Source of the DNA: Thraustochytrium sp. TN22 | Lineage: Eukaryota > Sar > Bigyra > Thraustochytrida > Thraustochytriidae | Reading direction: 5' to 3' | Length of the DNA stretch: 24,857 nucleotides | Assembly: GCA_013306675.1 (NCBI GenBank) | Contig: JABLUY010000373.1 | Location: forward strand, 1-24,857 | Shown: one piece after another, positions 1,020 through 14,405 of the stretch | Layout: the number at the start of each line of letters is the position of its first letter | Numbering within the stretch: position 1 is the first letter of the stretch | The notes under the pieces: generated by a model | Databases searched by the model: none | What the model saw: the letters and a program-made list of their open reading frames with translations, nothing else | What the model was told of the DNA's origin: nothing | Made by a program: the position numbers and the translations under genes

Positions 1020-2210
1020 ATGGTGGCCGCGGCGACGGCGACGGCGGCGCGGCGCCACAAGCCGCTGAGCGCGCTGGCGGTCATGATCCTCGCGCTGCTG
1101 GCGGCCGTGGGCGCGAGCGTGCTCATGGCCGCGCACATGGCCCTCGGGAGCACCGGAACGGGCCCTGGCGCCGGCGCCGTGGTCGTGGTGAACGCGGCGA
1201 CAGCGCCCACAACACTGCTGCGCCAGCCAGCGCCTCAGGTGCAAGTAACATTAGGTAGTTGGCCCAAACCCGGAGTCGAGCTCGAGCCCAATGATCCCAG
1301 GTCTGAGCCTGAGCCTGACACGAAATCCGTTCCTGAGCCCGAACCTGCGCTGGAGCAGGCGGCGAGGGAGGCAGGAGAGGACATGGAACTGTGCAGTGAG
1401 CCGCTCCAGCTCATGTCGCTGCAGCGGCCGCACGTCCGCGTGCAGCTGGCGTCGTTCCCAGGGTCCGGGAACACGTGGATCAGGCACGTAATCCAGCAGG
1501 GCACGCGCAGGCTGACGGGCAGCATGTACAGGGACGCGTCGCTGCTGAGCGTGTTTCCCATGGAGAAGGTGTACAACGAGTCAGTGGTGGTGATCAAGAC
1601 GCACTTCCCGTGCACGCGGTGCTGGCCGCACCCGAAGCGGCCAGACGCCTTCGTGCGCACCTATGCGTCCGGCGACGTGCCCCATGCCGCGCACACGCTC
1701 TACATTCTGCGGAGCCCCTTCGACGTGATCTTGGCCGAGTTTCAGCGCCTGCGCTCCAGCAACCACACGGGCAGCCTGGAGGCCGCTGCCTTCGAGCAGG
1801 CGGAGTGGACCGACTTCGCGCTGGACCGCGCCAAGGTGTGGGCTGCCCACGCCGACTACTACCTGGCCGAGCACACGGCCGGTCGCGCCTGGGTGGACCG
1901 CCGCGGCCGGCCCGTGACGCTATTCATCTTTGAGCACTTCGTCCGCACCTTCGAGCGCGAGACCGGAGACCTCATCGACAGCCTGCGCGCGCTACATGGT
2001 GCCGGCGAGATCGCGCCGACGCGAGCGGCGCTGGCCTGCATCGCAGCGGACCGCGCGGGCTCCTTCCAGCGCCCGGCGAAGCACCGCATCAACCCGTACT
2101 CGGCATCCGTAGCGGCGTCAATCTGCGCGATCGTCGCGCGCCACTGGCGCGAAGAGGACTGGGGCCCGTGCTCTGGCCAGATGCAGTGGCAGCGCACCAT
2201 CGCCATGTGA
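1020..2210 (+). CDS. WSCD-like type II membrane sulfotransferase
   Basis: Predicted to transfer sulfate from PAPS to a sugar or protein acceptor in the Golgi lumen. The 396-residue product has a short basic N-terminus, one hydrophobic anchor at about 16-42, a Pro/Glu/Asp-rich stalk at about 85-120, then a sulfotransferase fold. The 5'-phosphosulfate loop is FPGSGNTWIRH (146-156), followed by IKTHFP (192-197) and the 3'-phosphate-binding stretch LYILRSPFDVILAEFQR (227-243). This spacing and the PFDxILAEFxR form resemble the WSCD1/WSCD2 group rather than cytosolic sulfotransferases. N-glycosylation sequons are seen at NES (186-188) and NHT (248-250). The start at 1020 was chosen because its context (gccaccaccATGG) is an excellent Kozak match; the frame is open upstream but has no ATG. 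The acceptor cannot be inferred. The next gene converges on it after 172 nt. Confidence 0.85.
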   Translation: MVAAATATAARRHKPLSALAVMILALLAAVGASVLMAAHMALGSTGTGPGAGAVVVVNAATAPTTLLRQPAPQVQVTLGSWPKPGVELEPNDPRSEPEPDTKSVPEPEPALEQAAREAGEDMELCSEPLQLMSLQRPHVRVQLASFPGSGNTWIRHVIQQGTRRLTGSMYRDASLLSVFPMEKVYNESVVVIKTHFPCTRCWPHPKRPDAFVRTYASGDVPHAAHTLYILRSPFDVILAEFQRLRSSNHTGSLEAAAFEQAEWTDFALDRAKVWAAHADYYLAEHTAGRAWVDRRGRPVTLFIFEHFVRTFERETGDLIDSLRALHGAGEIAPTRAALACIAADRAGSFQRPAKHRINPYSASVAASICAIVARHWREEDWGPCSGQMQWQRTIAM

Positions 2211-2382
2211 CGGGGCGGGACGCGAGACTTGAAAGGATCTGCCTTCCTGCGCGAGCAAATCGCAAGTGTACCAGCTGGTCTTCGGGCGCCGGCGTGTTCA
2301 AGTATGGAAAATTCACGCTCCCTCCAGACCGCCCGGGCATACCAGCTCGCGAGACACCGTCCCCGGCTTCTTTTACACTCAA

Positions 2383-3309
2383 TTACATCGGGGAAACTTG
2401 CTTGTATGTGATAGCTACGTCGAGTGACTTGCAGATGCGCTTGCACTCCGCGGATGGCTCGGCGCCGAAGAGCACCAGGCGTGGCCGCTTGCCCGTGGCC
2501 TTGCCGTAGCACAGCGCCTGGCCCACGCCGTGCACCCAGTCCTGCGTCGGCTTGACTTCGATCACGGTGCTCTCCGTCTCGACGTCCGCGAAGCCCACGG
2601 AGTTCCTGGCCTCCGCGCGGCCGCCCGTGGAGGCCGCGATCTCATCTCGCACTCTATCGTGCTCGCTCTGCGACGCGCCGCGCTCCACCTGGCAGGCCGC
2701 GGCTGCTTCCTCGGCCTCCGCGAGCGCGAACGCTTTGGCCTCCGGGCTGGCGTACTTTTCGTAGGCCGAGTTCATGGCGAGCAGGATCGCCACGAAGGCA
2801 TCCCTGCGCGGCGACTGCATCGTCAGGAGCAGCCTCTGAGCGAAGTTGGGGGCCACGAAGGGATACTTGGTTGCGTGCCCAGCGCTCGACTTGATCTCGA
2901 GCACCTCGCCGTCCGTGCCGGGAATGGGGAAGGCAATATTGGATTCCAATCGGAATTCTTCGAACCTGCCCCCATTGTCCTTGGTTCCGAAGATCTCCGC
3001 CCGCGGCAGGAAGGCCCAGTCAATGCCCGTCCCGTGCTCGCTAAGTACATGGCGAATAAAATCGCGCTGGTGTTGACTGGTGCTCCAAGCCCTGCCAGCG
3101 ACGGCGGCGACGAGCATGGCAGGAACGCATTTGGTGCCCCTACGTTCCGGGTTGATGGCGAAGTTGGTGAGCCAGAGGAATGCGGTAATGAGCTCGCGCG
3201 GGGCGATGATCTCGCTCGAAAGCTGCTCGCACTGCGTGGTGGTGAGCCGGCCGAAGCGCTCGTTGAGCTCCTGGACCTCCTGGTCCGTGATGACGACGGG
3301 CTCGTCCAT
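2383..3309 (-). CDS. MSV199-like/PD-(D/E)XK nuclease-like protein, copy A
   Basis: Not a recognised housekeeping gene. The 308-residue product has an N-terminal alpha-helical part. Its middle (about 135-185) looks like the end of the MSV199/antirepressor-type DNA-binding domain of large DNA viruses, with the pattern APNFAQRLLL...AILLAMNSAYEKY. The C-terminal nuclease-like core has Asp242, the Glu251-Val-Lys253 ExK pair and a following Gln264, in the motif EVKPxxxWxHGxGQA. The plus-strand neighbour has the same motif, so the two are paralogs in divergent orientation. The frame also offers an ATG at 3396, whose extra 29 residues are coded by the GTL-type repeat; the ATG at 3309 has a better Kozak context (A at -3, G at +4). 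The gene looks whole. A virus-derived or selfish-element origin is inferred; activity on DNA is untested. Confidence 0.65.
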   Translation of the reverse strand: MDEPVVITDQEVQELNERFGRLTTTQCEQLSSEIIAPRELITAFLWLTNFAINPERRGTKCVPAMLVAAVAGRAWSTSQHQRDFIRHVLSEHGTGIDWAFLPRAEIFGTKDNGGRFEEFRLESNIAFPIPGTDGEVLEIKSSAGHATKYPFVAPNFAQRLLLTMQSPRRDAFVAILLAMNSAYEKYASPEAKAFALAEAEEAAAACQVERGASQSEHDRVRDEIAASTGGRAEARNSVGFADVETESTVIEVKPTQDWVHGVGQALCYGKATGKRPRLVLFGAEPSAECKRICKSLDVAITYKQVSPM

Positions 3310-3355
3310 GCTGCTCTCCGGCCAGCGTTGCGCGTCTGCCGCTGGCGGCCGATCG

Positions 3356-3499
3356 AGCGTCCCAAGCGTCTTAAGTGTCCCAAGCGTCCCAAGCATCCAC
3401 GTGGAAGGCTGTTAGCCGTGCCAAGCCAGGCAATGAAGAATCAAACCCGAGCGTCTCGAGCGTCCCAAGCGTCCCAAGCATGCAACGTGGAAGGCTGTT
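3356..3499. repeat. Duplicated repeat in the divergent promoter region
   Basis: Two direct copies, about 3356-3412 and 3450-3499, lie between the divergent nuclease-like genes. Each begins with tandem 10-mers of the type agcgtcccaa and ends with a shared tail containing acgtggaaggctgtt. The last 38 or so bases agree at nearly every position, with one small gap. The left copy overlaps the alternative N-terminal extension of the minus-strand gene. They could be paired regulator-binding sites or the trace of a local duplication. Confidence 0.8.
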
Positions 3500-3546
3500 T
3501 GTCGAGACGGGGCCGTGGCAAAACCAAACCCCAGCACCGAGCAGCG

Positions 3547-4326
3547 ATGAGTGAGCGCGTGACCGAGGCGCTGCTGCGGGCGGCTGGAGTGGCCGCCTGC
3601 GACCTCGAGCAGGCCGACCAGCTCGCGCGCGTCCTCTGGGACCACGCGGGCGATGCCGACGATGCCTTCGTCATTGACATCGAGCTCGTCTGCGAGCTCT
3701 TGCAGCAGCGCAAGGAGAATGCACTGCGCGTCCTCAAGGGCGAGCGTGGCCACGGCCTCGCGGAGGACGTGGATTACCAGAAAATGCATTCACGCCCCGA
3801 GAGAAAGCCGCGCCGTGGCCGCAACAAGGTCACCTACATGCTGACAAGAAAAGGCTTGGTGAAGTTCCTGGCCAACAGCCGATGCCCTCAGGCACAGGCC
3901 TGGACCACGTTCCTGGTGAAGCTCGGGGTTGCGCATGCCGACGCCCTTGAAGACGAGGAGTGCTACCACCCGGAGCGCTACCACGTGCATCAGCGGCGCT
4001 GCGCGGATGAGCTCAGGCACGATCTCGAGGCGGCCGAGATGAAGGAAAGCAAGCACGACTGCGTGCGCGACAGACTGGCACGAGAGCTTGGTGGCGTTGC
4101 AGAGGCCCGTCTCTCGCATGGCGTCCGAGCTGACGTCTTGTGCTCGGACGTCGTGATTGAGGTGAAGCCCGTCGAAGAGTGGATGCACGGGATGGGCCAG
4201 GCGCAGGCGTACGCTTACTCTAGCAAGCGGCGCCCTCGGCTACATCTTCTGTCCAAACCGCCCGCCTTCGTCGAACCAGTGTGCAGGTCCCAGGGCGTAG
4301 AGCTCACCTGGGAGGCCGCTGCGTGA
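3547..4326 (+). CDS. MSV199-like/PD-(D/E)XK nuclease-like protein, copy B
   Basis: The 259-residue product has two recognisable halves. Residues about 42-126 match the MSV199/AntA-like pattern of poxviruses, iridoviruses and other large DNA viruses: IDIELVCELLQQRKENALR, then a VDY element, a basic loop, YMLTRKGLVKFL and a closing helix. Residues about 185-240 form a PD-(D/E)XK-like core with Asp196, Glu205-Val-Lys207 and Gln218, in the motif EVKPVEEWMHGMGQA shared with the divergent neighbour. A predicted DNA-binding module joined to a nuclease-like module suggests action on specific DNA, but this is inference. The start at 3547 has G at -3; an in-frame ATG at 3433 would add repeat-coded residues. 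The frame stays open upstream to 2530 only because it is antisense to copy A. The gene looks whole. Confidence 0.65.
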   Translation: MSERVTEALLRAAGVAACDLEQADQLARVLWDHAGDADDAFVIDIELVCELLQQRKENALRVLKGERGHGLAEDVDYQKMHSRPERKPRRGRNKVTYMLTRKGLVKFLANSRCPQAQAWTTFLVKLGVAHADALEDEECYHPERYHVHQRRCADELRHDLEAAEMKESKHDCVRDRLARELGGVAEARLSHGVRADVLCSDVVIEVKPVEEWMHGMGQAQAYAYSSKRRPRLHLLSKPPAFVEPVCRSQGVELTWEAAA

Positions 4327-4484
4327 GTGGCCCGGCTTCGTAGACCTAAGAAACAGAGATTAGATGATCTTGTTGTGACCGCCAGGGCCTGGCGAGGCCG
4401 CCGGTAGTGCGCCACCCCGCTCAGCTCAGCTCAGCTCACTCGCTCGCCCGCTGCGCGCGGCGCAGACAGACCTGAGTCGGAGGC

Positions 4485-4532
4485 GCGAGGGCGAGGGCGA
4501 GGGCGAGGGCGAGGGCGAGGGCGAGGGCGAGG
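4485..4532 (+). repeat. (GCGAGG) hexanucleotide repeat, about 8 units
   Basis: Perfect tandem hexamers, purine-rich on the plus strand, about 70 nt before the ATG of the nuclease-kinase gene and so probably in its 5' UTR or core promoter. A related (GAGCGC)n run inside the gene codes for the Arg/Glu stretch at residues 19-33. The G-triplets could form a quadruplex. Confidence 0.9.
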
Positions 4533-4602
4533 CGGCGGCAGGCGCACGCGGCGAGAGGCGCGCGCTCTGCGCCGCGCAGCGTAGCGAAGCGCGGCCGGCA
4601 GC

Positions 4603-6477
4603 ATGGGCAACATCTTCGGCGGCAAGGATCGCGAGTTGCAGCGTGCTCTCGAACGCGCCGAGCGCGCCGAGCGCGAGCGCGAGCGCGAGCGCGAGGCCCG
4701 GCTGGCGGCGGAAGAGGGCCGGCTGGCGGCGGAAGAGCGACTGCAGGAGGTGCTGAGACCCGTCTGGGAGCTCTTGGGCGGGGCGCTCTGCGGCCGCGTG
4801 CTCCGCGGGCGCGTGTCCTCCTCCACGCGCACGACGGCGCCGGGGCAGGTGGATCGCGACCGCTTCATACTGCCGCCCGAGGTCCGCCGCTGGAGTACTT
4901 TCGCGAGGGACATAGGCCTTCACCAGAACCAGACCAACGACCGGGTCGCAAACGTGGATGTCTGGCCCACCTACGGCACCCTCGATGCCGGAGTCAGCGA
5001 GGCGTCGCTTCTCAACAAAATGTCAATTCTTGTCTTCAACGGCACTCAAAAGTTCTTGAGAGAGGAGCTTCCGGCGCAAGCGATCGACTTCGAGCTCGAG
5101 AATGGAATCTGGTTAGGCGGCCGCGTGGACCTCAGCTGGACCCGCGCCGGCGCCGCGACGGATTCCTCGCTCGTCGCGCTCTCTACCAGGACGACGGTTG
5201 ACACGGAGAATTTGCGCAGCATCTTTGTTGTCCACGAGCACAAGGCCGGCATGGTATTCCCCTTCAGGGCAGTCTTGGAGAGGACCACGCGCAGCGGTAC
5301 GACGAGGCGCTATGAGATCAGCACCGATATCGTGTCTCTCTGGAACGATTACTCGAATGATGCAAGCAACTTCCGGCTCGTGGCTCCGATCGCGCAGACC
5401 TTCACGTACATGATCCAAATGGCGCTCAAGTACGCTGTATTGTCCACGACGATCCACACCTACTTTCTCAAGCGCGACAAGAATGGCACTCTCTTTGTAT
5501 CGCCCGTGTTCTCCGCCGAAACAGGCGGGCGCAGTTCGACGCGGCGCGCCTACCTGACTTTTCTGTTGCATGCGCTCGGCGACGAGGAGACCCAGGGCCT
5601 GGGGATCGACCAGGACGGCCCGCTCTATCAGTCCATGCGCAACGGCGAATACCGCGCTTTCGCCGACGCACTCGCCGACGTGGTCGTGCTCACGCGCGAT
5701 GTGCACAGGAGATTAGGAAGGACATTCGACGCCTTCGCGGAATACTGCCGAGATAACCTAAGTGACTGGGACCCGAGCGCGAACGCGCGATCGCGCGCGC
5801 GAGAGGATGTCCTGGCGCTGCTCCCGGTGGCGGCGGCTGACTTCGTCCTGCCGCTGCCCTCCGCCGGCAGCGAGTGCCTCCTGTGCGATAACTTCAAGCT
5901 CGTCGAACGGTCCAACACGATGGGCATCCCGATGGTGACCAAGAAGTGGTTCGGCCGCCTGATCCCGAAGCACGAGGGTGAGAACGATGCCGCGGACGAG
6001 GCCCTCCGGCGCGAGGCGAGCATGTACAAGCACCTGCGCGCGTTGCAAGGCGTGGCCATCCCGATGCTCGTCTTCGCGGGCCGTTGCGGGCCGGTGCACC
6101 GCTTGCTCGCTGTCTCCGACGAGGGCGACTCGCTGGAGTGCCTGCTCGACGGGCTGCTTGGCGGCGACGCGGCCGAGCAAGTGCAAGTGCACGCGGACGC
6201 AGAGACGGAGGCCCGCGAGCAGGCCCTGCTGGATAAGCACTTTGAAGCTGCCCGGTCCGCGCTCGCCCAGTTGCACGCCGCGCACGTGCTGCACGGCGAC
6301 GTTGCGCTTCGCAACATCGTCGTGCACCCCGAGCGCGGCGTCAAGTTCATCGACCTGGAGCGCGCCGCCGAGTCGCGCGACAAGGCATTGTTCGTTGCGG
6401 AGATGGAGGAGCTGGCGGCGATCTTTGGCCAATGCCACGCGGATCATCCCCCCTCCGCCAAGCGGCACTGCCACTGA
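4603..6477 (+). CDS. Crinkler-type PD-(D/E)XK nuclease plus protein kinase fusion
   Basis: The 624-residue product has three parts. Residues 8-52 are a charged Arg/Glu coiled coil after MGNIFGGK, a weak N-myristoylation candidate. Residues about 160-290 carry a PD-(D/E)XK nuclease core: Asp176 in GGRVDL, Glu212-His-Lys214 in VVHEHKAG, and a later helix with Gln265 in APIAQTFTYM. Residues about 440-610 form a compact eukaryotic-type kinase: HGDVALRN (564-571) is the catalytic loop with HGD in place of HRD, and IDLE with Asp584 is the metal-binding site. This nuclease-then-kinase order is characteristic of Crinkler-related (CR) effectors, a family published analyses link to transposons. No Crinkler header or secretion signal is seen. 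The start has a GCAGCATGG context. The stop lies 11 nt from the end of the converging small ORF of the recombinase unit. The gene looks whole. Confidence 0.75.
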   Translation: MGNIFGGKDRELQRALERAERAEREREREREARLAAEEGRLAAEERLQEVLRPVWELLGGALCGRVLRGRVSSSTRTTAPGQVDRDRFILPPEVRRWSTFARDIGLHQNQTNDRVANVDVWPTYGTLDAGVSEASLLNKMSILVFNGTQKFLREELPAQAIDFELENGIWLGGRVDLSWTRAGAATDSSLVALSTRTTVDTENLRSIFVVHEHKAGMVFPFRAVLERTTRSGTTRRYEISTDIVSLWNDYSNDASNFRLVAPIAQTFTYMIQMALKYAVLSTTIHTYFLKRDKNGTLFVSPVFSAETGGRSSTRRAYLTFLLHALGDEETQGLGIDQDGPLYQSMRNGEYRAFADALADVVVLTRDVHRRLGRTFDAFAEYCRDNLSDWDPSANARSRAREDVLALLPVAAADFVLPLPSAGSECLLCDNFKLVERSNTMGIPMVTKKWFGRLIPKHEGENDAADEALRREASMYKHLRALQGVAIPMLVFAGRCGPVHRLLAVSDEGDSLECLLDGLLGGDAAEQVQVHADAETEAREQALLDKHFEAARSALAQLHAAHVLHGDVALRNIVVHPERGVKFIDLERAAESRDKALFVAEMEELAAIFGQCHADHPPSAKRHCH

Positions 6478-6488
6478 TACTTCGCCAA

Positions 6489-6713
6489 TTACGTTACGAG
6501 CAAGTGTTGCTCTGCGGCAGCTGCCGCTGCGGCGGTGTCCTGTCCCTGGTCCTGAAATTTCGCGAGGAGGCAGACGACGCGCTTGTGCTTGTCGAACATG
6601 TTGAATACCTTTGCCTGTGCTTCGTCGAATCCGTCGCTCCTGTTCTTCTTCCTGATGGCGGCTTTGCTCTTGCGGAGTGTTTCCTGGTCGAGGATGTGCT
6701 CCCAGGTTGCCAT
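6489..6713 (-). CDS. Small charged ORF at the 3' end of the recombinase unit
   Basis: 74 residues starting MATWEHILDQETLRKSKAAI, helical and rich in Lys, Asp and Glu, ending in an Ala run. Its composition is protein-like, whereas the overlapping end of the longer recombinase frame (after about 6740) turns into Ser/Thr/Arg-rich shadow sequence. So the recombinase either ends in this frame, by a one-base shift or an unseen intron, or this is a separate small gene overlapping it. I do not recognise the family. The stop is 11 nt from the converging kinase gene. Confidence 0.45.
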   Translation of the reverse strand: MATWEHILDQETLRKSKAAIRKKNRSDGFDEAQAKVFNMFDKHKRVVCLLAKFQDQGQDTAAAAAAAEQHLLVT

Positions 6714-9028
6714 GGGCGGCCCTTTTCCGCGAGACCCAGCAGGCCCATGCTCTCCGCAGGTTGGGTGGGTGTTCTCAGCCGCAGCACGTGCGTGGCCCAC
6801 TGCGTGACGATGCCAGGCGGCTGCGACTGTGGCTGTGGCTGTGGCTGTGGCTGTGGCTGCGACGGTGGCGCAACCACGGCCGCGGCCTCGCTCACGGCCT
6901 CGCTCACGGCCTCGCTTTCGTCGTCGTGGCCGTCGTCCTCGCTGTCACTGATGCAAAGGTCCAGGGCGTGTTGGTTGTCGCCTTGGCTCTCTTGGTCGCT
7001 TTGGCTCTCTGGGTCGCTCAGGCTCTCCTGGTCGCTTTGGCTCTCCTGGACGCATTGGCCCTCGTTGCCTGTTTTGCGCTTGCGAGCCGCGCACAGGATG
7101 ACTCTCTCCTCCTGCACTACGATGATGCGATGCGGCACGACGATGGCGCGTTGCGCGTAGCGGTAGACCAGGGGCACGACATCGCCGCAGTTGAGCGCGG
7201 TGGTGTAGTCCACGGTGAAGCGCGGCATGGGCTGCAGTGGCAGTGTCTCGATGAGTGCTCTGCGTAGACGCGTGTCGCCCGTGACGATGCCGGTCTTGTC
7301 GCGGCCGGCGAGGCACAGGTAGGGCGCGAGCCGCAGGAGGCGTTCGTCGCCGAGCAGGCGGCGCACGTTGCGCGGGTAGTTGTCGCGCACGCACCGCATC
7401 ATGGCGTTGCGCTCGTTGTGAACGAGGAACTGGGCGGCAGGACTCCATCCGGGCGCGTCGGGGTGGCGGTTGGCGGCCAGGCGGCCCACGACGCGGTGCG
7501 CGTCGGCCTGCATCGCGATGTAGTGGGAGCTCGCCTTGGAGGCTGTGGCCGCCTCGATGGCGTCGGTGTGGCCCGCGCGCACCTTGACGTGGTCGACATT
7601 GCCGTTGCGCAGTCCGCGCGCGGTCATGGTTGTGAGGAACATCTTGCGCAAGGAGTAGAACACAGAGCGCAGCTGCGCGCAGCGTGTCCAGTCCTGGCCG
7701 ACGGATGTCACGAGTTTGTCCCAGACGCCCGTGAGCTTGTCGGTGTGGCCGATTCCCTCGTCGAAGAAAGAGCCTGCCTTGGGCCCCTTCCAGCTCGTGT
7801 AGAGCACGGACAAGAAGTCCATGCGGTCTGTGAGTGCGATGCGCTCATCAATCTGCGTGAGCGCGATGGCCACGGCCGTGTGCGGGCATCGCGCCGGCTC
7901 GTTGAGGTCGGCGTAGAGCCAGGCGAAGCCGCCAGCCCAGTGCTCGCGCACGACGCCCTTGAAGTAGCGCACGGTGGCTCGCAGAAAGACATCCTGCTCG
8001 TCGCGGTCGTCCTCGGGCATGACGATCTCGGTCAGGTCGGCCAGCGTGGACTTTTTCAAGTCGGAGAGGCGGCAGCCGATGCTTCCGAGCAGCACCGTGA
8101 GCGTGTGCAGGAAGGCTCGCTGGCGCGGCTCGAGTCCCAGGTCGGTCTCGCTGAAGAGCGCCCTGCAGAGCGGCGTGTACTCCCTCGCGTAGTCCAGGTG
8201 GACTGCTCTGTTGTGCGCGATGCTTCCCTTGATGACGGCATCGATGTCTTGTTCTGCTTCTTCGCCGCCGCTGTCGAAGACAACGCGGCGCTCCCGCTCG
8301 CTCCGTTCCTTGTTGAGCTCCTTGAAGGTGGCGGCGAAGAGGCCCATGGCCGTGAGCTCGTTCCAGGATCTGCGCACGTCAGCGAGTCTGGGTGCGACGC
8401 TGGCCATCGCGCCCGAGTCGTCTTGCAGCATGGTGGCGACCAGTTTGGTCAGGCTCTGGAAGCGCACTTTGATGGTCTTGATCCGGGTCGACTTGATCTA
8501 GGCGCGGAGGAGGTTTTCGCGCACTCGGGCGCAGCGCTGCGCCTCGTCGCCGGCGCCGCCCACGAGCACGCGTAGGAAGAGCGCCGCGGAGGCTGCGAGG
8601 CTCGCAGGCGCGCTCGTCGCTTCCCTGGAGTGCTTGGTCTTGCCCTGTGCGGCGACCCATCGTCGCGCAGCGGTGGCCCACTGGTGCCCTGCCTCGCGCT
8701 CGACCGGGTGGTGGCCGTGGCCGTCGCCTCCTTCTGCCGCGGCCCATCGCCAGAAGGCGTTTGGCGCACCGGTCGCGTTGCTCTTGGTGCTTGCCGCGTT
8801 GCCGTGGTTCTTGAGCGTGGCGTCGGCAAGCCCCTTGAGCGTGTCGAGCATGGCCTCGACGCTGTTGTTGTCACCGGAGTTGCTGCATCCTCCTCCGTCG
8901 CTCGGTGGCAGTGGCGGTTGCGGTGGCGGTGGCGGTGCGATCGACGCGAGAGGGGCGCGCGCGCCGGGCGGCAGCGCCGGCGCCTCCTCCTCCCACTGCC
9001 AGCCGGGCTCCTGCTTCGCGAGCGGCAT
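6494..9028 (-). CDS. Tyrosine recombinase (Crypton- or captain-like)
   Basis: One frame from the ATG at 9028 (context gccaccaccATG) runs to 6494, interrupted once by TAG at 8498-8500. The N-terminal part is low-complexity, Pro/Ala-rich. After it comes a helical domain, then the catalytic domain: first Arg in GCRLSDL (about 8071), second Arg in YSLR (about 7648), His in AGHTD (about 7570) and the candidate Tyr nucleophile in SSHYI (about 7522). The H-to-Y gap of 16 is longer than in phage integrases. Sequence after the Tyr (ADAHRVVGRLAANRHPDA) recalls eukaryotic Crypton/captain proteins. The C-terminus has acidic Q-S-D/P-E repeats and a QP repeat. A 69-nt, frame-keeping candidate intron (8524 to 8456; GTGCGC...TTCCAG) would remove the TAG; a true nonsense change is equally possible. 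The AlphaBeta fold is inferred from motifs only. Confidence 0.65.
6828..7055 (-). repeat. Low-complexity coding repeats in the recombinase C-terminus
   Basis: 6828-6858 is a (TGTGGC)n run coding QP dipeptides on the minus strand. About 6975-7055 holds imperfect 18-nt units coding QSDQES/LSDPES-type hexapeptides. Both lie beyond the catalytic domain and probably form a disordered acidic tail. Confidence 0.8.
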
Positions 9029-9537
9029 GGTGGTGGCGGCGGGCGGTTTTACGGTATGGGGGCGAGCTAGTAGCAAGAGGCGCTGGGCCCGCCAGGGTGC
9101 GCGTGTGCGTGTGTGCGAGAGTGTGTGTTATGTCAGCAAGCTCAAAGAAAGGGAAAAGCAAGCGAAAAGCTGACTACGTTTTGATTACGGGGATCCTGTC
9201 CATGACCGTTTTAAAGAGGCCAGTTGAGCCAAGAATGATCTGCACCTGCGCCCGCATGCACTTTTCGGCTTGCGTGAGAGCCCCGAGTTCCTCGTCTTCG
9301 ACGACCCACTTAATATGGGGAGCTAGCCGGGAGTAGGTATCGCGATGGGCGGCACTAAATTTGTTGTCAGGAGCAGGCACGTTCTTCCTCTCGCAAAGGT
9401 AAAACACCAAATGATAGTCATTCACACGTTGCTTGCCTCTTATTGGTGCATAAGCTTACAGGGCGGCCCGCCCGCCACGGCGCACGCGCGCGCACGCGAG
9501 CCAAGGCTAGCCGGCACGGACATTCGCGCACCCATCG
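9029..9537. other. Spacer with a start-less ORF relic
   Basis: Base composition falls towards 50% GC between about 9130 and 9450, unlike the flanks. The minus strand is open from about 9459 to 9174 and reads as plausible protein (contains HLVFYLCERKNVPAPDNKF and APHIKWVVEDEELGALTQ), ending IPVIKT. There is no upstream ATG before an in-frame stop, so this is either an internal exon or a fragment of a gene. I do not recognise it. It lies just outside the recombinase gene and could mark the right edge of the accessory block. Confidence 0.4.
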
Positions 9538-10533
9538 TTAGACGCGCAAGACCTGGACCTTGTCGTCGAAGCCAATGCCGACCCAGTCGGGCGTCGACTG
9601 CGCCCACTGCAGGTTGTTGATGAAGGAGTCGGCCTTGTACGCGAGAATGGGCTCGTCGATCTCGCGAGGCAGGGTGGACAGCTCCCAGATGAGCGCCTGG
9701 GAGTCCTCGGCGACGGTGCAGATGTGGCAGGACGAGTGCGGCGCCCAGGCGACGGCGTTGACGGCGCCAGTATGGCCGCTGAGCTCGGCGTAGGGCTTGC
9801 AGGGCAGGCGCTTGTCGAGGATGATGGTCTTGTTGCTGTTGAGCGCCACAAAAGCAAGAAAGTTGGAGTCCTGCTTGTTCCAGGCCAGGCGCAGGAGCGA
9901 CTGGCGCGTGGAGTCATCGTCGTAGATGATGACGGAGCGCTCCATGGAGCGCAGGTCGAAGGTGCGGATGGAGCCGTCGGCGCTGGCCGTGGCGAAGGTG
10001 TTGCGGTCGCGAGTGGCCCACGCGATGTCGTAGACCTCCTCGTCGTGCGCGATGAGCTGCGCCTTGACGCACTGCGCCTCGACGTCCCAGACCGTGGCGG
10101 TGGTGTCGATGCTCGAGGTGGCGACCATGTTCAGGTCCACCTGGTTCCAGTCCAGCGAGGTGAGCGGCGCGCAATAGTCGTTTGTCTTGCTGTTGTTGAG
10201 CGTGCACAGCTGCACCACCTCGGTGTTGTCCGGCGCCACCTGCCAGATGCGCAGGTAGTCGCCGGTCGTGGCCAGCAGGTCTCGGACCGACCCGGACGGG
10301 TCCGGCACCCAGCTGATCTTGGTCGTCGGGTACGGGTGCTCGAACCCCGTCTTGTGCACGAAGTCGTCCTTCTCCTCATCGTACTGCACGATGTGCACCT
10401 GGTTCGTGTACTCCTCGCGGAAAGATCCCACCGCGAAGCGGAACTTGAACCTTTCGTTGGCGCGCTCCGAGAACGCCAGCGCGTACGAGTTCCACGGCGC
10501 TTTGTACGTGTAGATCTCCCTCTTCTTCGTCAT
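9538..10533 (-). CDS. DCAF7: DCAF7/WDR68/TTG1-type WD40 scaffold protein
   Basis: A 331-residue seven-bladed WD40 propeller, close to the length of human DCAF7 (about 342). The start MTKKREIYTYKAPWNSYALA, the blade motif TSLDWNQVDLNMVATSSID (126-144), the IAHDEEVYDIAW stretch (161-172), FATASADGSIRTFDLRSMERS (180-200) and the end IGFDDKVQVLRV are characteristic of this highly conserved family. In animals it scaffolds DYRK/HIPK kinases and associates with CUL4-DDB1 ligases; in plants the family (TTG1, AN11) partners MYB-bHLH factors. It acts in nucleus and cytosol. The ATG at 10533 has A at -3; the frame is open further upstream only through GC-rich leader coding Arg/Ala-rich sequence. No introns are needed. 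Confidence 0.97.
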   Translation of the reverse strand: MTKKREIYTYKAPWNSYALAFSERANERFKFRFAVGSFREEYTNQVHIVQYDEEKDDFVHKTGFEHPYPTTKISWVPDPSGSVRDLLATTGDYLRIWQVAPDNTEVVQLCTLNNSKTNDYCAPLTSLDWNQVDLNMVATSSIDTTATVWDVEAQCVKAQLIAHDEEVYDIAWATRDRNTFATASADGSIRTFDLRSMERSVIIYDDDSTRQSLLRLAWNKQDSNFLAFVALNSNKTIILDKRLPCKPYAELSGHTGAVNAVAWAPHSSCHICTVAEDSQALIWELSTLPREIDEPILAYKADSFINNLQWAQSTPDWVGIGFDDKVQVLRV

Positions 10534-10938
10534 GTTTCCTCCCTCGCCGCCCTCCGCGCGCGCGCGCCGCCGCCGCCGCCCCGTCGCCCGCCCCGTCGCC
10601 TGCCTGCCTGCCCGCCTTCGTGCGCGCGTGCGTGCGTGCGCACGCCGGCGCGGATTCCGAAGCGACGCGGACCGGCCGCGCTGCGCCGCGCCGCGCCTAG
10701 CGCCGCCGCCCTCCCGGCCCCGCCCGCGCGCGCGCCGCCGCCGCCGCCCGTGCCGCGCCGCCGCGTTCGGGCTCTGCCGGCGGTCGCGTGCGCGCCTCGC
10801 TGCTCCTTCTGCGTCGCGGCGGCGGCCGCCTTCCCCTCTTCCTTCGAGTTGGGCGAGCCCAACCACCGCCACCTGCAGCTGCAGCACGGGGCCGCTGCCG
10901 GCCGGAGTTCGGGCCCGACGCCGGCGGGAGCGCGCTCT
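10534..10938. other. GC-rich upstream region of the DCAF7 gene
   Basis: Dominated by CG- and CCG-rich sequence that leaves several frames open on both strands, all coding Arg/Ala/Gly-rich shadow protein. Probably the promoter and 5' UTR of the minus-strand DCAF7 gene. No TATA box recognised. Confidence 0.5.
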
Positions 10939-10954
10939 CTAGCTAGCTAGCTAG
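10939..10954. repeat. (CTAG)4 tetranucleotide block
   Basis: Four perfect CTAG units. A near-identical block lies at 11803-11818, so the two bracket an 850-bp gene-poor segment. CTAG is self-complementary, so the block has no strand. Confidence 0.95.
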
Positions 10955-10990
10955 GTCTGCGAAGCTTTCCTGCGGCCAGGCGCAGCAAGC

Positions 10991-11299
10991 ATGAATGTCT
11001 TGCCGGGACTGGGGGTACCATGGTACAGGGACAGCATGTTCAGGGCGGGCGTCGTGCGCGGTCGCGGGCAGCGCTTCTACGACTGGCGTGACGGCAACAG
11101 GTGGGTTGGATTCACCTTGAGCGAGGCGATGCACCGGCGCCTGCACCGCTTCAAGCCAAGGGCGCTGACGTGCGGCGTGGCACGGCGCGGCGCGGCGCGG
11201 CGCGGCGCGGCTCGCCGGCACGCCGGGGTCCGAGCTGGACACTGCTTCTCCAAAGAGCTGATGCGCGCTTCAATTTGGCGGAGAATCGTCGCAGCGTAA
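10991..11299 (+). CDS. Hypothetical short ORF
   Basis: 102 residues. The first half, starting MNVLPGLGVPWYRDSMFRAG and followed by GQRFYDWRDGNRWVGFTL, looks like real protein and the ATG has A at -3. The second half is coded by a (cggcg)-type simple repeat (about 11176-11215) and gives ARRGA repeats. A donor-like acag|gtgggt at about 11100 would allow the first 37 residues to splice elsewhere. No family recognised. Confidence 0.25.
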   Translation: MNVLPGLGVPWYRDSMFRAGVVRGRGQRFYDWRDGNRWVGFTLSEAMHRRLHRFKPRALTCGVARRGAARRGAARRHAGVRAGHCFSKELMRASIWRRIVAA

Positions 11300-11415
11300 A
11301 TGAATCAGCGTGAGCTTGCTCTGCAGGAGCTCGAGCTTACTGCTTGAAGCGTGCTTCAATTCAGCGAAGTTTTCCGCAGAACGACTGACTTGACGCGGGG
11401 ACTTGTTCTGCAACG
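11259..11415 (+). repeat. Diverged direct repeat, period about 86 bp
   Basis: Sequence starting tgatgcgcgcttcaattt at 11259 is matched by tgaagcgtgcttcaattc at 11345, and similarity continues through gcttgctctgcag versus acttgttctgcaa. Identity is roughly two thirds over 70 bp by eye. Confidence 0.55.
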
Positions 11416-12228: not shown

Positions 12229-12738
12229 TTAGGCCTTGGCGGCAGCCTTCTTGGCGGGCGACTTGGGCTTGGCGGCCGCGGCCTTCTTGGCGGCGGCCGG
12301 CTTCTTGGCAGCGCCGGCGGCCTTCTTGGCGGCAGCGGGCTTCTTGGCCTTGGCGGGGGACTTGGCGCCGGCGGCGGCCTTCTTGGTGGGGGACTTGGCC
12401 TTGGCGGCAGCGGGCTTCTTGGCGCCGGCGGCGGCCTTCTTGGCGGGTGCCTTCTTCTTGGGGGTGCCGGCGGCGGCGCCCTCCTTCTTGGGCTTGGCGG
12501 CCGCGGCCTTCTTGGGCTTGGCGGCGGCCTTCTTGGGCTCGGCGGCCTTCTTGGACACCTTGTAGTGGCCGCCGTTCTTGAGCAGCACGCCGCTCTCGAC
12601 GCCGGTGCGCAGCGCCTTGTTGAGGAAGTGGTTCTTCTCCTTGGGCACGTCGAGCGCCGACTTGAGCGCGGGCAGCGTCACGCCCTTGCGCTCCTGCGAC
12701 TTCTTAATCGCCTCCACGACCTGCTCCAGCATCGTCAT
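12229..12738 (-). CDS. Linker histone H1
   Basis: Binds linker DNA at the nucleosome dyad and compacts chromatin. The 169-residue product starts at once with the winged-helix H15 domain (about 4-64: MLEQVVEAIKKSQERKGVTL, then NHFLNKALRTGVESG and a closing HYKVSKK). It then has a Lys/Ala/Pro-rich tail of about 105 residues. The tail holds KSPTKK, KSPAKA, KSPAKK and GTPKKK, which are S/T-P-x-K sites that cyclin-dependent kinases phosphorylate in H1. There is almost no N-terminal tail before the globular domain, unlike animal H1; short N-termini are common in protist H1. Starts are the ATG at 12738 or the one two codons later. Single exon, TAA stop. Confidence 0.95.
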   Translation of the reverse strand: MTMLEQVVEAIKKSQERKGVTLPALKSALDVPKEKNHFLNKALRTGVESGVLLKNGGHYKVSKKAAEPKKAAAKPKKAAAAKPKKEGAAAGTPKKKAPAKKAAAGAKKPAAAKAKSPTKKAAAGAKSPAKAKKPAAAKKAAGAAKKPAAAKKAAAAKPKSPAKKAAAKA

Positions 12739-14405
12739 CTTGCCTTTTCCTCTGTGTCTGCGAACGTTCGCCGCGCCGTCAGTCTCCCGCCTCTCCCGCT
12801 CGCTCGCGCGCTCCCTCTCCTCTGCGCGCCTCTCTTCCTCGCGCGCGCGCTCCCTCTCTTCCTCGCGCGCGCCGCCCGCGCCGCGCGCGCGCCGCCGCGC
12901 GCCGCGCGCGCCCTCTCTTCCTCGCGCGCGCGTCGGCGGCCGGCGGCGGCCCTCCCGCCGCGCCGCATCCCGGCCCCGCCTCCCGCCGCGCCGCCTCCCG
13001 CCTTCCGCCTCCCGCCGCGCCTCTGCGCCGCGCGCCGCGCGCGCGCGCGCGCCGCCGCCCACTCACCGCCGCGCCGCTGCCGCTGGCCGCTGCCTGCCGC
13101 GCGCTGCTGCTCGGCTTGGCTGCGCTGCTGCTCCGCTATTCCAGTCTGCTGCTCCCTCCCCTCTCTCTGCCGCGCCGCGCCGCGCGTGGAAAAAGGGGCG
13201 CGCAGCGGCGCGCGGGGGGCTGCGGGGCGCTGCGGGGCGCCGCGGGGGCCGGCGGCGCGCGGGCGCGCCCGCGCGGGCGCCGCAGGGGGGGCTGGGAAAA
13301 ACGGCGCCGCCCGGAGCGGTTGCAGGCCGCGCGGCTGCGGGCGGGGGGCGGCGGGGGTTCTGGCGGCAGCGGGCGGGGGGCGCTGCGGAGGAAAGCGAGG
13401 GGAGAGAGGGGGGGGCGAGGCCGGCAGGGGCGAGGGGGGGGCGGCGGGGGAGAGGGCCGCAGTGGAGGCGAAGGGGACGATGGCCACGACGCCGTGGTCG
13501 CCGGGTACGAGGCGAAGGAGGAGCGAGGGAAGAGCGCGGCCGGGCGGAAGGCAGCGCCTGGCCGCGCAAGGAGAGCGGGGCAGGACGCGGCGCTGCGCAG
13601 GAGCGCGGCAGCGCACGCGGCGGCGAGCGCCTCGCGCGCGACGACGCGAGGCGGGACCCGGTCGGCCGCGCCGATTTTTCCCTCCCGCGACCGAGCGCTG
13701 CTGGGTTGGGGGCGGACGGTGGTTGGGGCGGATTCCGCGCAGGCGGCGAGAGGTGCTGGGCGGATAGGGGCCGGGGGGGGGGCGCGGGCGCGGCGAGGGT
13801 GGGAGGCGCGTGTGGAGGGCGGGGTGACGCGCCGGGTGGCGGAGAGGGGCTCTGTATGGGGAAGGGGGGCGCGCGCTCGGAGTGGGCTGGCGGGGTGAGG
13901 CGCAACGAGCGGATTGGCCAGGCCGGGTGGAGCGAGAGGGGTGGACGGTTGGGCCCGGACGGGCGGCGAGATGTGCTGGCGCGATGCTGCGAGCCTGCGG
14001 CTGCAGCTCCAGCTGCAGTGCAGCTGCGCTTGACGGTGAATTTGAGGAGGCCGCACGTAAGCTAACGTTATACGTTACGTGAGAAGGCTTGTGGGCCGGG
14101 CGCGCCGGGCATGACTTCGTGCAGGTCTGGGTCCTTTCGTCGCCCAGGCTCTGCCCGGCCCATGGACCCCTGGCGCTCTGCGAGAGTGGTCTGTGGCATG
14201 CCAGCGCCATGTACGAGTCGCACGTTGAGCCACGTTCACGGTTCACCCTCCCTCCATGAGTCCATGGCCCAGGATTGACTCCGGGATCGCATTCACACGC
14301 ACGGACCGTCACAAGCTTCAGTCGGTGGCGGTGGACCACTGGTGGTGAGTCAAAAGGTTACCTACAATGCAAGCAAGCAATGTCGCGTGATGGCGCAAGC
14401 CGCCA
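12739..14405. other. 1.6-kb extreme-GC region with strand-skew switch
   Basis: Between the H1 start and the VWA8 stop there is no supportable gene. About 12780-13150 is rich in C and T on the plus strand; about 13190-13900 is rich in G with many runs of four to eight G. Stops are so rare that long frames open on both strands (up to about 530 codons), but they code only Arg/Ala/Gly/Pro-rich shadow protein and overlap one another. The part next to H1 is probably its promoter and 5' UTR. About 14000-14035 is a CTGCAG-rich quasi-palindrome. From 14060 the composition returns to normal, with aacgttatacgttacg near 14062. Confidence 0.6.

Follow-up and report, generated by a model that had tools for sequence, protein, structure and literature searches.

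Cryptons are described, in excerpts of Kojima and Jurka (2011, PMC3212892), as elements with a tyrosine recombinase gene, without terminal inverted repeats and, in many groups, with terminal repeats of 4-6 bp. The same excerpts place CryptonF and CryptonS elements in fungi, oomycetes and a diatom, and mention oomycete Cryptons that sometimes carry a gene for an extra protein, a C48 peptidase; CryptonS elements are described as frequently terminating in TATGG. The Starships of Pezizomycotina, as outlined in part of PMC12134995, carry a DUF3435 captain at their leading edge and span 15-700 kb, and degraded copies of them are known. A restriction endonuclease-kinase architecture makes up about one-sixth of the C-termini of CR (Crinkler-RHS-type) proteins, for which an origin in prokaryotic conflict systems and mobile elements has been proposed (excerpts of the review PMC5289972, on Zhang et al. 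2016). Here we describe a four-gene block of the thraustochytrid Thraustochytrium sp. TN22, which we read as probably the relic of a recombinase transposon with passenger genes, whose nuclease-kinase gene was kept open after the death of the element. The analysed stretch (the window) is the whole contig JABLUY010000373.1 of assembly GCA_013306675.1, with 24,857 bases (C303); the host genome comprises 37.9 Mb in 453 contigs. The block extends from 2383 to 9031, and its four long open reading frames (ORFs), taken from the ORF list, were named A, B, K and R:

2383..3396, minus strand: gene A, 337 amino acids (aa), with a C-terminal PD-(D/E)XK-like nuclease in common with B
3547..4326, plus strand: gene B, 259 aa, with a weak Bro-N-like N-terminal part and a C-terminal PD-(D/E)XK-like nuclease
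4603..6477, plus strand: gene K, 624 aa, with a coiled N-terminus, a nuclease-like block and a C-terminal protein kinase
6494..8467, minus strand: gene R, a putative tyrosine recombinase, its C-terminal tail out of frame

The block appears to work like a small cargo transposon, and it resembles each of the known systems in part. As in Cryptons, a tyrosine-recombinase gene is the likely mover, no terminal inverted repeats were seen, and an extra gene may be carried; the block differs in having three passengers, two nuclease-like and one nuclease-kinase gene, in an R without GCR1_C, DUF3504 or any other above-threshold Pfam match and with the first catalytic His replaced, and in that terminal repeats of 4-6 bp were not established for it. 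As in Starships, a recombinase-like gene stands at one edge, directed inward, with accessory genes behind it, but neither R nor R2, its relative on C60, matched DUF3435 (PF11917) or the two Crypton-type Pfam models, the block measures at most 7.3 kb between its flanks as against 15-700 kb, and direct repeats were not found; the Starship affinity suggested by a first-pass annotation of this DNA is therefore not supported. As in CR proteins, K combines a protein kinase with a PD-(D/E)XK-like block; it differs in that no CR header was found in it, that its nuclease block is predicted from motifs only and that any effector role of K would be putative. Bro-N, MSV199 and KilA-N are protein types of viruses and transposons; B has a marginal Bro-N match ahead of its nuclease tail, but this match lies below the curated cut-off, A has no match, and no viral relative was found. 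Because defining features were missing or not settled, the block was placed in none of these families.

The genome was searched with each block protein, and the copies compared were those of the window, C339 and C94. A, B, K and R, or their remnants, recurred jointly at the two further loci, with order and orientation kept, and this recurrence of all four together is far beyond chance:

C339, inverted with respect to the window: R, 5573-7266, plus strand; K, 7348-9207, minus strand; B, 9504-10279, minus strand; A, 10326-11332, plus strand
C94, degraded: A, 40782-41664, minus strand; B, 42639-43386, plus strand; K, 43603-45492, plus strand; R (tail), 45569-45745, minus strand

As a query, R matched seven stretches on four contigs (C303, C339, C94 and C60), while K gave 54 matches, A 12 and B 13. 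The C60 sequence, R2 (C60:56-2092, minus strand), is an open frame of 678 aa at 43% to R and the sole ORF of the R family seen to be free of stops and to keep its tail in frame; used as a query itself, it yielded one extra weak match, on C222 (E 0.05). Three of the four R-family loci, the window counted, carried A, B and K; at the fourth, C60, the contig ends 55 bp from the R2 tail, on the side where K lies elsewhere. The first-pass annotation had proposed a cargo-bearing tyrosine-recombinase element, and this is still the best reading: instead of recombinase copies that never lie beside such cargo, which it had named as the contrary outcome, cargo was found beside R-family sequence at these three loci. 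Over the aligned parts, DNA identity of the C339 and C94 copies to the window was, respectively, 87.1% and 64.0% for A, 93.9% and 86.4% for B, 92.7% and 87.0% for K and 84.8% and 67.7% for R, the last value resting on 424 alignable columns. The order of relatedness was the same in all four genes, C303 and C339 being nearer to each other than C303 and C94. Fragments of A or B type were also seen on C409, C33, C155, C313, C348 and C331, with no R match within 1.5 kb on either side of each.

Identity within the block was patchy, with 65-98.5% per 200 bp. This pattern suggests conversion and speaks for an alternative in which an ordinary four-gene host cluster was copied twice by ectopic repair, R being a mere passenger; so do the small number of copies, three, the ends that are not fixed, and two K genes elsewhere (C331 and C332) that seem, by eye, to have been copied along with a piece of a neighbouring host gene. 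However, any two of the three blocks were without a common flanking gene, the common part halts near the A stop, and the recombinase-like gene of the unit is otherwise present at one locus only, barring the weak match. When the window, the whole of C339 and 20 kb of C94 were compared pairwise at the DNA level, no gene common to the three regions was seen outside the block. Segmental duplication is regarded as unlikely.

The reading of the block as a relic transposon with a retained passenger draws further on the different fates of its genes. K was open in all three copies (624, 620 and 630 aa in the window, C339 and C94), while A and B were open in the window and broken in C339 and C94. From the rate of frame-breaking gaps between copies of A, B and R, the damage of the window R included, 4.5 frameshift gaps were expected in K against C339 and 12.6 against C94; none and two were found, and the two, of 2 and 19 nt, add up to 21, so that the frame stays open. 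If substitutions were random, about 4.0 (C339) and 7.4 (C94) stops would be expected in K, where none was found. The ratio of nonsynonymous to synonymous substitution rates (dN/dS) of the kinase half was 0.15 (p 1.6e-6) against C339 and 0.41 (p 0.02) against C94, and this half is under purifying selection. The three other parts of K gave 0.93, 2.45 and 1.00 against C339 and 0.65, 0.83 and 0.76 against C94. The second of these parts is the nuclease region; its value between C303 and C339 (p 0.02) rests on 6.5 synonymous changes and was not repeated in the comparison with C94 (p 0.43), and positive selection is not claimed for it. Since constraint is uneven along K, the case for its retention rests on the open frame and the kinase half, not on the whole protein.

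R was damaged in all three cargo-bearing copies. In the window, its motif residues lie in an open frame and the tail, supported by R2 and by the C339 copy, lies out of frame, shifted by the loss, near 6716-6720, of about 95-100 bp that C339 still has. In C339, R is truncated at the 5′ end, contains stops and frameshifts and has His replacing Tyr, and of the C94 R the tail is all that remains. As no cargo-bearing copy has an undamaged R, we regard the block as a relic and not as a unit that demonstrably works. The recurrence at three unrelated loci agrees with the compact mobile unit of the first-pass annotation, apparently in a decaying form.

According to the mechanism we propose, R would have excised the unit and inserted it elsewhere through strand exchange by its Tyr, the mode put forward for Cryptons. 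The element may have been aided by A and B, or these may have competed with other DNA, and K may be an enzyme that attacks DNA under the control of its kinase, in conflicts with rivals or hosts; the label of a conflict-system unit could apply to the block in this sense. After insertion, R, A and B would decay and selection would keep K open, so that nuclease-kinase genes are left behind by the element.

R is very probably a tyrosine recombinase, as judged from its motifs and a profile comparison. The Arg of box I was located at 8069-8071, the Arg of the Y-x-x-R box at 7646-7648, the His of the GH motif at 7568-7570 and the Tyr at 7520-7522, the positions of the Arg I box (GSIGCR) and of the Tyr (HY) being assigned by eye; Arg 133, Arg 274, His 300 and Tyr 316 are kept in R2. 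A profile of the R family (R, R2 and two fragments of R from C339) was aligned with a recombinase profile built from 17 phage sequences, 16 of them annotated tyrosine recombinases and the other ORF011 of Staphylococcus phage 71, which matches P2 Int. The score was 32.8 (P 0.0019), and the top alignment paired the R-family stretch (Y/N)SLRKM...GHTD with HxLRHT...GHSS in the recombinases. None of 100 column-shuffled profiles reached this score (maximum 21.9); the reversed profile scored 14.0, and control profiles of K and of A/B scored 14.1 and 17.7. Pfam PF00589 had no match anywhere in the genome, and no convincing match was found for R among PDB sequences. The tyrosine recombinase that the first-pass annotation had placed at the right edge, transcribed inward, is accordingly upheld in position and direction as a gene with recombinase-like motifs and with profile similarity over the catalytic box, but no library searched gives it that name.

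Two further ORFs belong to the R region:

6489..6800, minus strand: R-tail ORF in another frame, carrying the tail that is present in the C339 R and matched by R2
8498..9031, minus strand: ORF upstream of R, 177 codons, in the frame of R, ending with TAG at 8498-8500

The frame from 6494 to 9031 is not continuous: this TAG interrupts it, and the tail of R lies in another frame. The 8498..9031 ORF could represent either the 5′ portion of R or an ORF of its own; R may do without it, given that the start of R2 approximately matches that of the R ORF. The TAG was also considered as proof of a dead R and dropped, since R2 begins at the matching place. A DNA search of the genome gave no second copy of the upstream ORF except for a short repeat at 8903-8946.

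The C-terminus of K is a protein kinase (Pfam Kdo, 2.6e-5; K-family profile against PDB kinases, 2.1e-6) with the kinase residues D566, N571 and D584, and its N-terminus is a charged coiled segment. In the family alignment, a conserved block (window 5098-5409) showed invariant E166, E212 and Q265 and near-invariant D176, K214 and Y269; it looks like a PD-(D/E)XK nuclease, and no match to it was found in PDB. A single-sequence AlphaFold model of K had a predicted local distance difference test (pLDDT) value of 36.3 and was usable for an N-terminal helix only. PADLOC and NCBIfam gave generic kinase matches only, and CR header models were absent from the Pfam matches of K up to E 1. Of the description of K as a nuclease-kinase gene of Crinkler type, the kinase is confirmed and the nuclease is suggested by motif residues, while the full Crinkler label is not supported, no header domain having been found.

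K is one member of a larger family, within which R was found with the block clade. In a tree built from 11 K sequences, the block Ks of the three copies formed one clade with support 100/99; the program warned of some long branches elsewhere in the tree. Twenty-three further K loci were examined with 1.5-kb flanks, 24 of the 54 matched stretches being outside this sample, and B was found at none of them and A at one (C409). A family of this size would also suit an explanation in which K is one lineage of a large kinase family of the host, long accompanied by R, A and B as neighbours, and the retention of K reflects ordinary host function; R stood at none of the 23 other loci, A at just the one. 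But the block Ks form a single clade, each member accompanied by A, B and R or their remnants, and we consider this explanation very improbable. At C409, a broken nuclease tail of A type (59976-60265, minus strand) lies about 60 bp beyond the stop of a K-family gene, tail to tail with it; here the A and K families are associated a second time, outside the block. The K loci C57, C332 and C331 were read over 10 kb and contained no A, B or R by tblastn, their surrounding ORFs being of host type by eye. The K paralogs of C332 and C331 (L044 3684-4739, L045 7003-8367) have in common, by eye, a translated stretch from the end of the neighbouring gene, which suggests that K was copied there together with a piece of host DNA.

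A and B have a common C-terminal stretch of about 91 aa (46% identity, E 2e-18), in which a pattern of PD-(D/E)XK type (D, VIEVK, GQxxxY) was read by eye. Copies of A were found in C339 (75%) and C94 (64%), and a fragment at C409. B matched Bro-N with E 0.047 and 14.8 bits, below the Pfam cut-off of 25.6; MSV199 matched neither gene in Pfam, and A was also without a Bro-N match. The two MSV199-like/PD-(D/E)XK paralogs of the first-pass annotation are hence paralogous in their tails, with no MSV199 match and a sub-threshold Bro-N. By eye, the N-termini of A and of a 194-aa ORF of the C94 copy seemed to resemble that of B; shuffle tests gave no support. This ORF (41811-42392; L040 7809-8393, minus strand) lies in an insert of about 840 bp between A and B, is single in the genome except for a 63-bp 3′ end, and had no Pfam match. 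A 133-aa ORF outside A in C339 did not occur elsewhere in the genome.

Large DNA viruses commonly carry Bro-N-like genes and genes with nuclease tails, and the weak Bro-N match of B would agree with the block being a fragment of an integrated DNA virus, with R as the viral integrase and A, B and K as nuclease and kinase genes of the virus. However, viral contigs scanned with the K alignment, B and R gave no relative (a single protein as query reaches only close relatives), phage records contained no match to B, and no capsid, polymerase or packaging gene was found among the Pfam-scanned ORFs, a subset of the ORFs, of the three contexts. A viral origin is considered improbable. For R, K and B, no relatives outside this genome were found in 5.8 billion proteins, a search that scored the best approximately 8000 word-sharing candidates for R and K and 3758 for B.

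The ends of the putative transposon were sought in the three copies. C303 and C339 have sequence in common from a point about 30-50 bp inside the A stop onwards. The right end is unreadable because R is truncated in both other copies, and a DNA search of the genome with 8000-9600 gave nothing beyond 8107 except a short repeat (simple repeats were skipped by the tool). Eight inverted pairs of at least 16 nt were found, none of them marking both edges. GTATGG at 2302 and 9054 (TATGG at 2303 and 9055) recalls the ends of CryptonS elements but was not accepted as proof of termini, being 1 of 28 six-mers common to both flanks; position 2303 falls within a stretch common to C94. Two non-genic features bear on the ends and repeats:

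2275..2336, minus strand: stretch outside the A stop, 63 bp, 81% identity to the 3′ end of the 194-aa ORF of C94, possibly a decayed fifth element gene
3397..3546, no strand: divergent intergenic region of A and B, with 9-bp AGCGTCCCA-type repeats

The first of these was placed at C303 and C94 only by the DNA search of the genome, and a protein search with the C94 ORF found C94 only; it represents either a decaying fifth element gene or rearranged copies. The AGCGTCCCA-type repeats begin inside the 5′ end of A (3356-3398) and occur again at 3446-3493, and a similar repeat is present in C94. A GTAGACCTAAGAA motif is common to the window at 4336-4375, after the B stop, and to C339 just outside A (L039 1359, minus strand); it was considered as a terminus and rejected, as in comparison of the examined loci it looks like a common gene end instead. 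In C339, three spaced repeats, 72-83 bp apart, were seen 100-300 bp from the broken R end (L038 5280-5472).

A number of results weigh against a relic recombinase transposon with a retained K. Only three block copies exist, each without a whole R; their right-hand ends differ, and exact ends, a convincing target duplication and terminal repeats, the first two of which the first-pass annotation had hoped a comparison of alleles would reveal, were not found on either side of the three copies or in repeat searches. R was found within 1.5 kb of 0 of the 23 other K loci. As to R itself, the first His of HxxR is Tyr in R and Asn in R2; hhalign gave the R profile a probability of 14%, for a match that spans box II without Arg I; and among 55 ORFs of at least 300 aa ranked as single sequences, R2 and R came first and second narrowly (23.2 and 22.7 against 22.2 and 22.0). 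None of the family libraries searched, including Pfam, PHROGs, PADLOC and NCBIfam, names R a recombinase, its one marginal PHROGs match (E 0.037) being a family of unknown function, and a single-sequence AlphaFold model (pLDDT 35.6) was too poor to show a fold. As to K, constraint is confined to the kinase half: dN/dS of the whole gene was 0.80 (p 0.26) against C339 and 0.71 (p 0.018) against C94. The corresponding values for the C339 comparison were 0.52 for A, 0.80 for B and 0.41 and 0.75 for the pieces of R, so that the whole of K is not more constrained than A, B and R.

The block is packed between host genes, as had been noted from the sequence at first, its ORFs lying between a gene that ends at 2210 and a WD40 gene, 7.3 kb apart (2210-9538):

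1020..2210, plus strand: left flank gene, 396 aa counted from its ATG, with a low-complexity Pfam match only
9538..10533, minus strand: right flank WD40 beta-propeller gene (Pfam WD40 models)

The left gene is presumably sulfotransferase-like, by eye, and the right one we take to be DCAF7/WDR68-like. Neighbours in the window are eukaryotic (linker histone, WD40, zf-UBP), and the genes are intron-poor and GC-rich. K and R stand tail to tail, the K stop being separated by 16 nt from the 6494 frame and by 11 nt from the 6489 frame; the spacing of 11 nt given before is correct for the latter, which was probably the one meant. Between R and the WD40 gene, an open stretch of 84 codons (9177-9428, minus strand) looks protein-coding by eye; it had no Pfam match and no second genome copy by DNA search. 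Rfam and tRNA scans of the window gave no matches. The nearest Pfam-named flanks were a peptidase C1 gene and a DUF4147/MOFRL (glycerate-kinase-type) gene in C339 and ubiquilin and IMPDH/GMP-reductase genes in C94; these are the nearest among the ORFs scanned, with unnamed ORFs in between, and not always immediate neighbours. The C339 block is flanked by apparently paralogous secreted proteins (3196-4596 and 12574-13638, by eye), as expected of insertion into an array.

No account of such a unit was found among the matches listed in the Crinkler, tyrosine-recombinase/Crypton and thraustochytrid literature, most subscription papers lying outside this scope. We tentatively suggest, as a possibility that we rate well below the relic reading itself, a protist group of cargo transposons with its own recombinase lineage and a CR-like nuclease-kinase, whose dead copies keep only the latter and so seed the CR-like family of the host. 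The proposed origin of CR-type genes in mobile or conflict elements needs physical linkage to the element's own recombinase. In Thraustochytrium sp. TN22, a nuclease-kinase gene recurs beside two nuclease-like genes and a gene resembling a recombinase, and its frame has remained open in copies where these are broken, and the route from transposon passenger to host gene becomes testable within one genome. The finding suggests that edge recombinases with several cargo genes are perhaps not restricted to the Starships of ascomycetes, and the block may show mobile DNA in the course of seeding nuclease-kinase genes that resemble an effector family.

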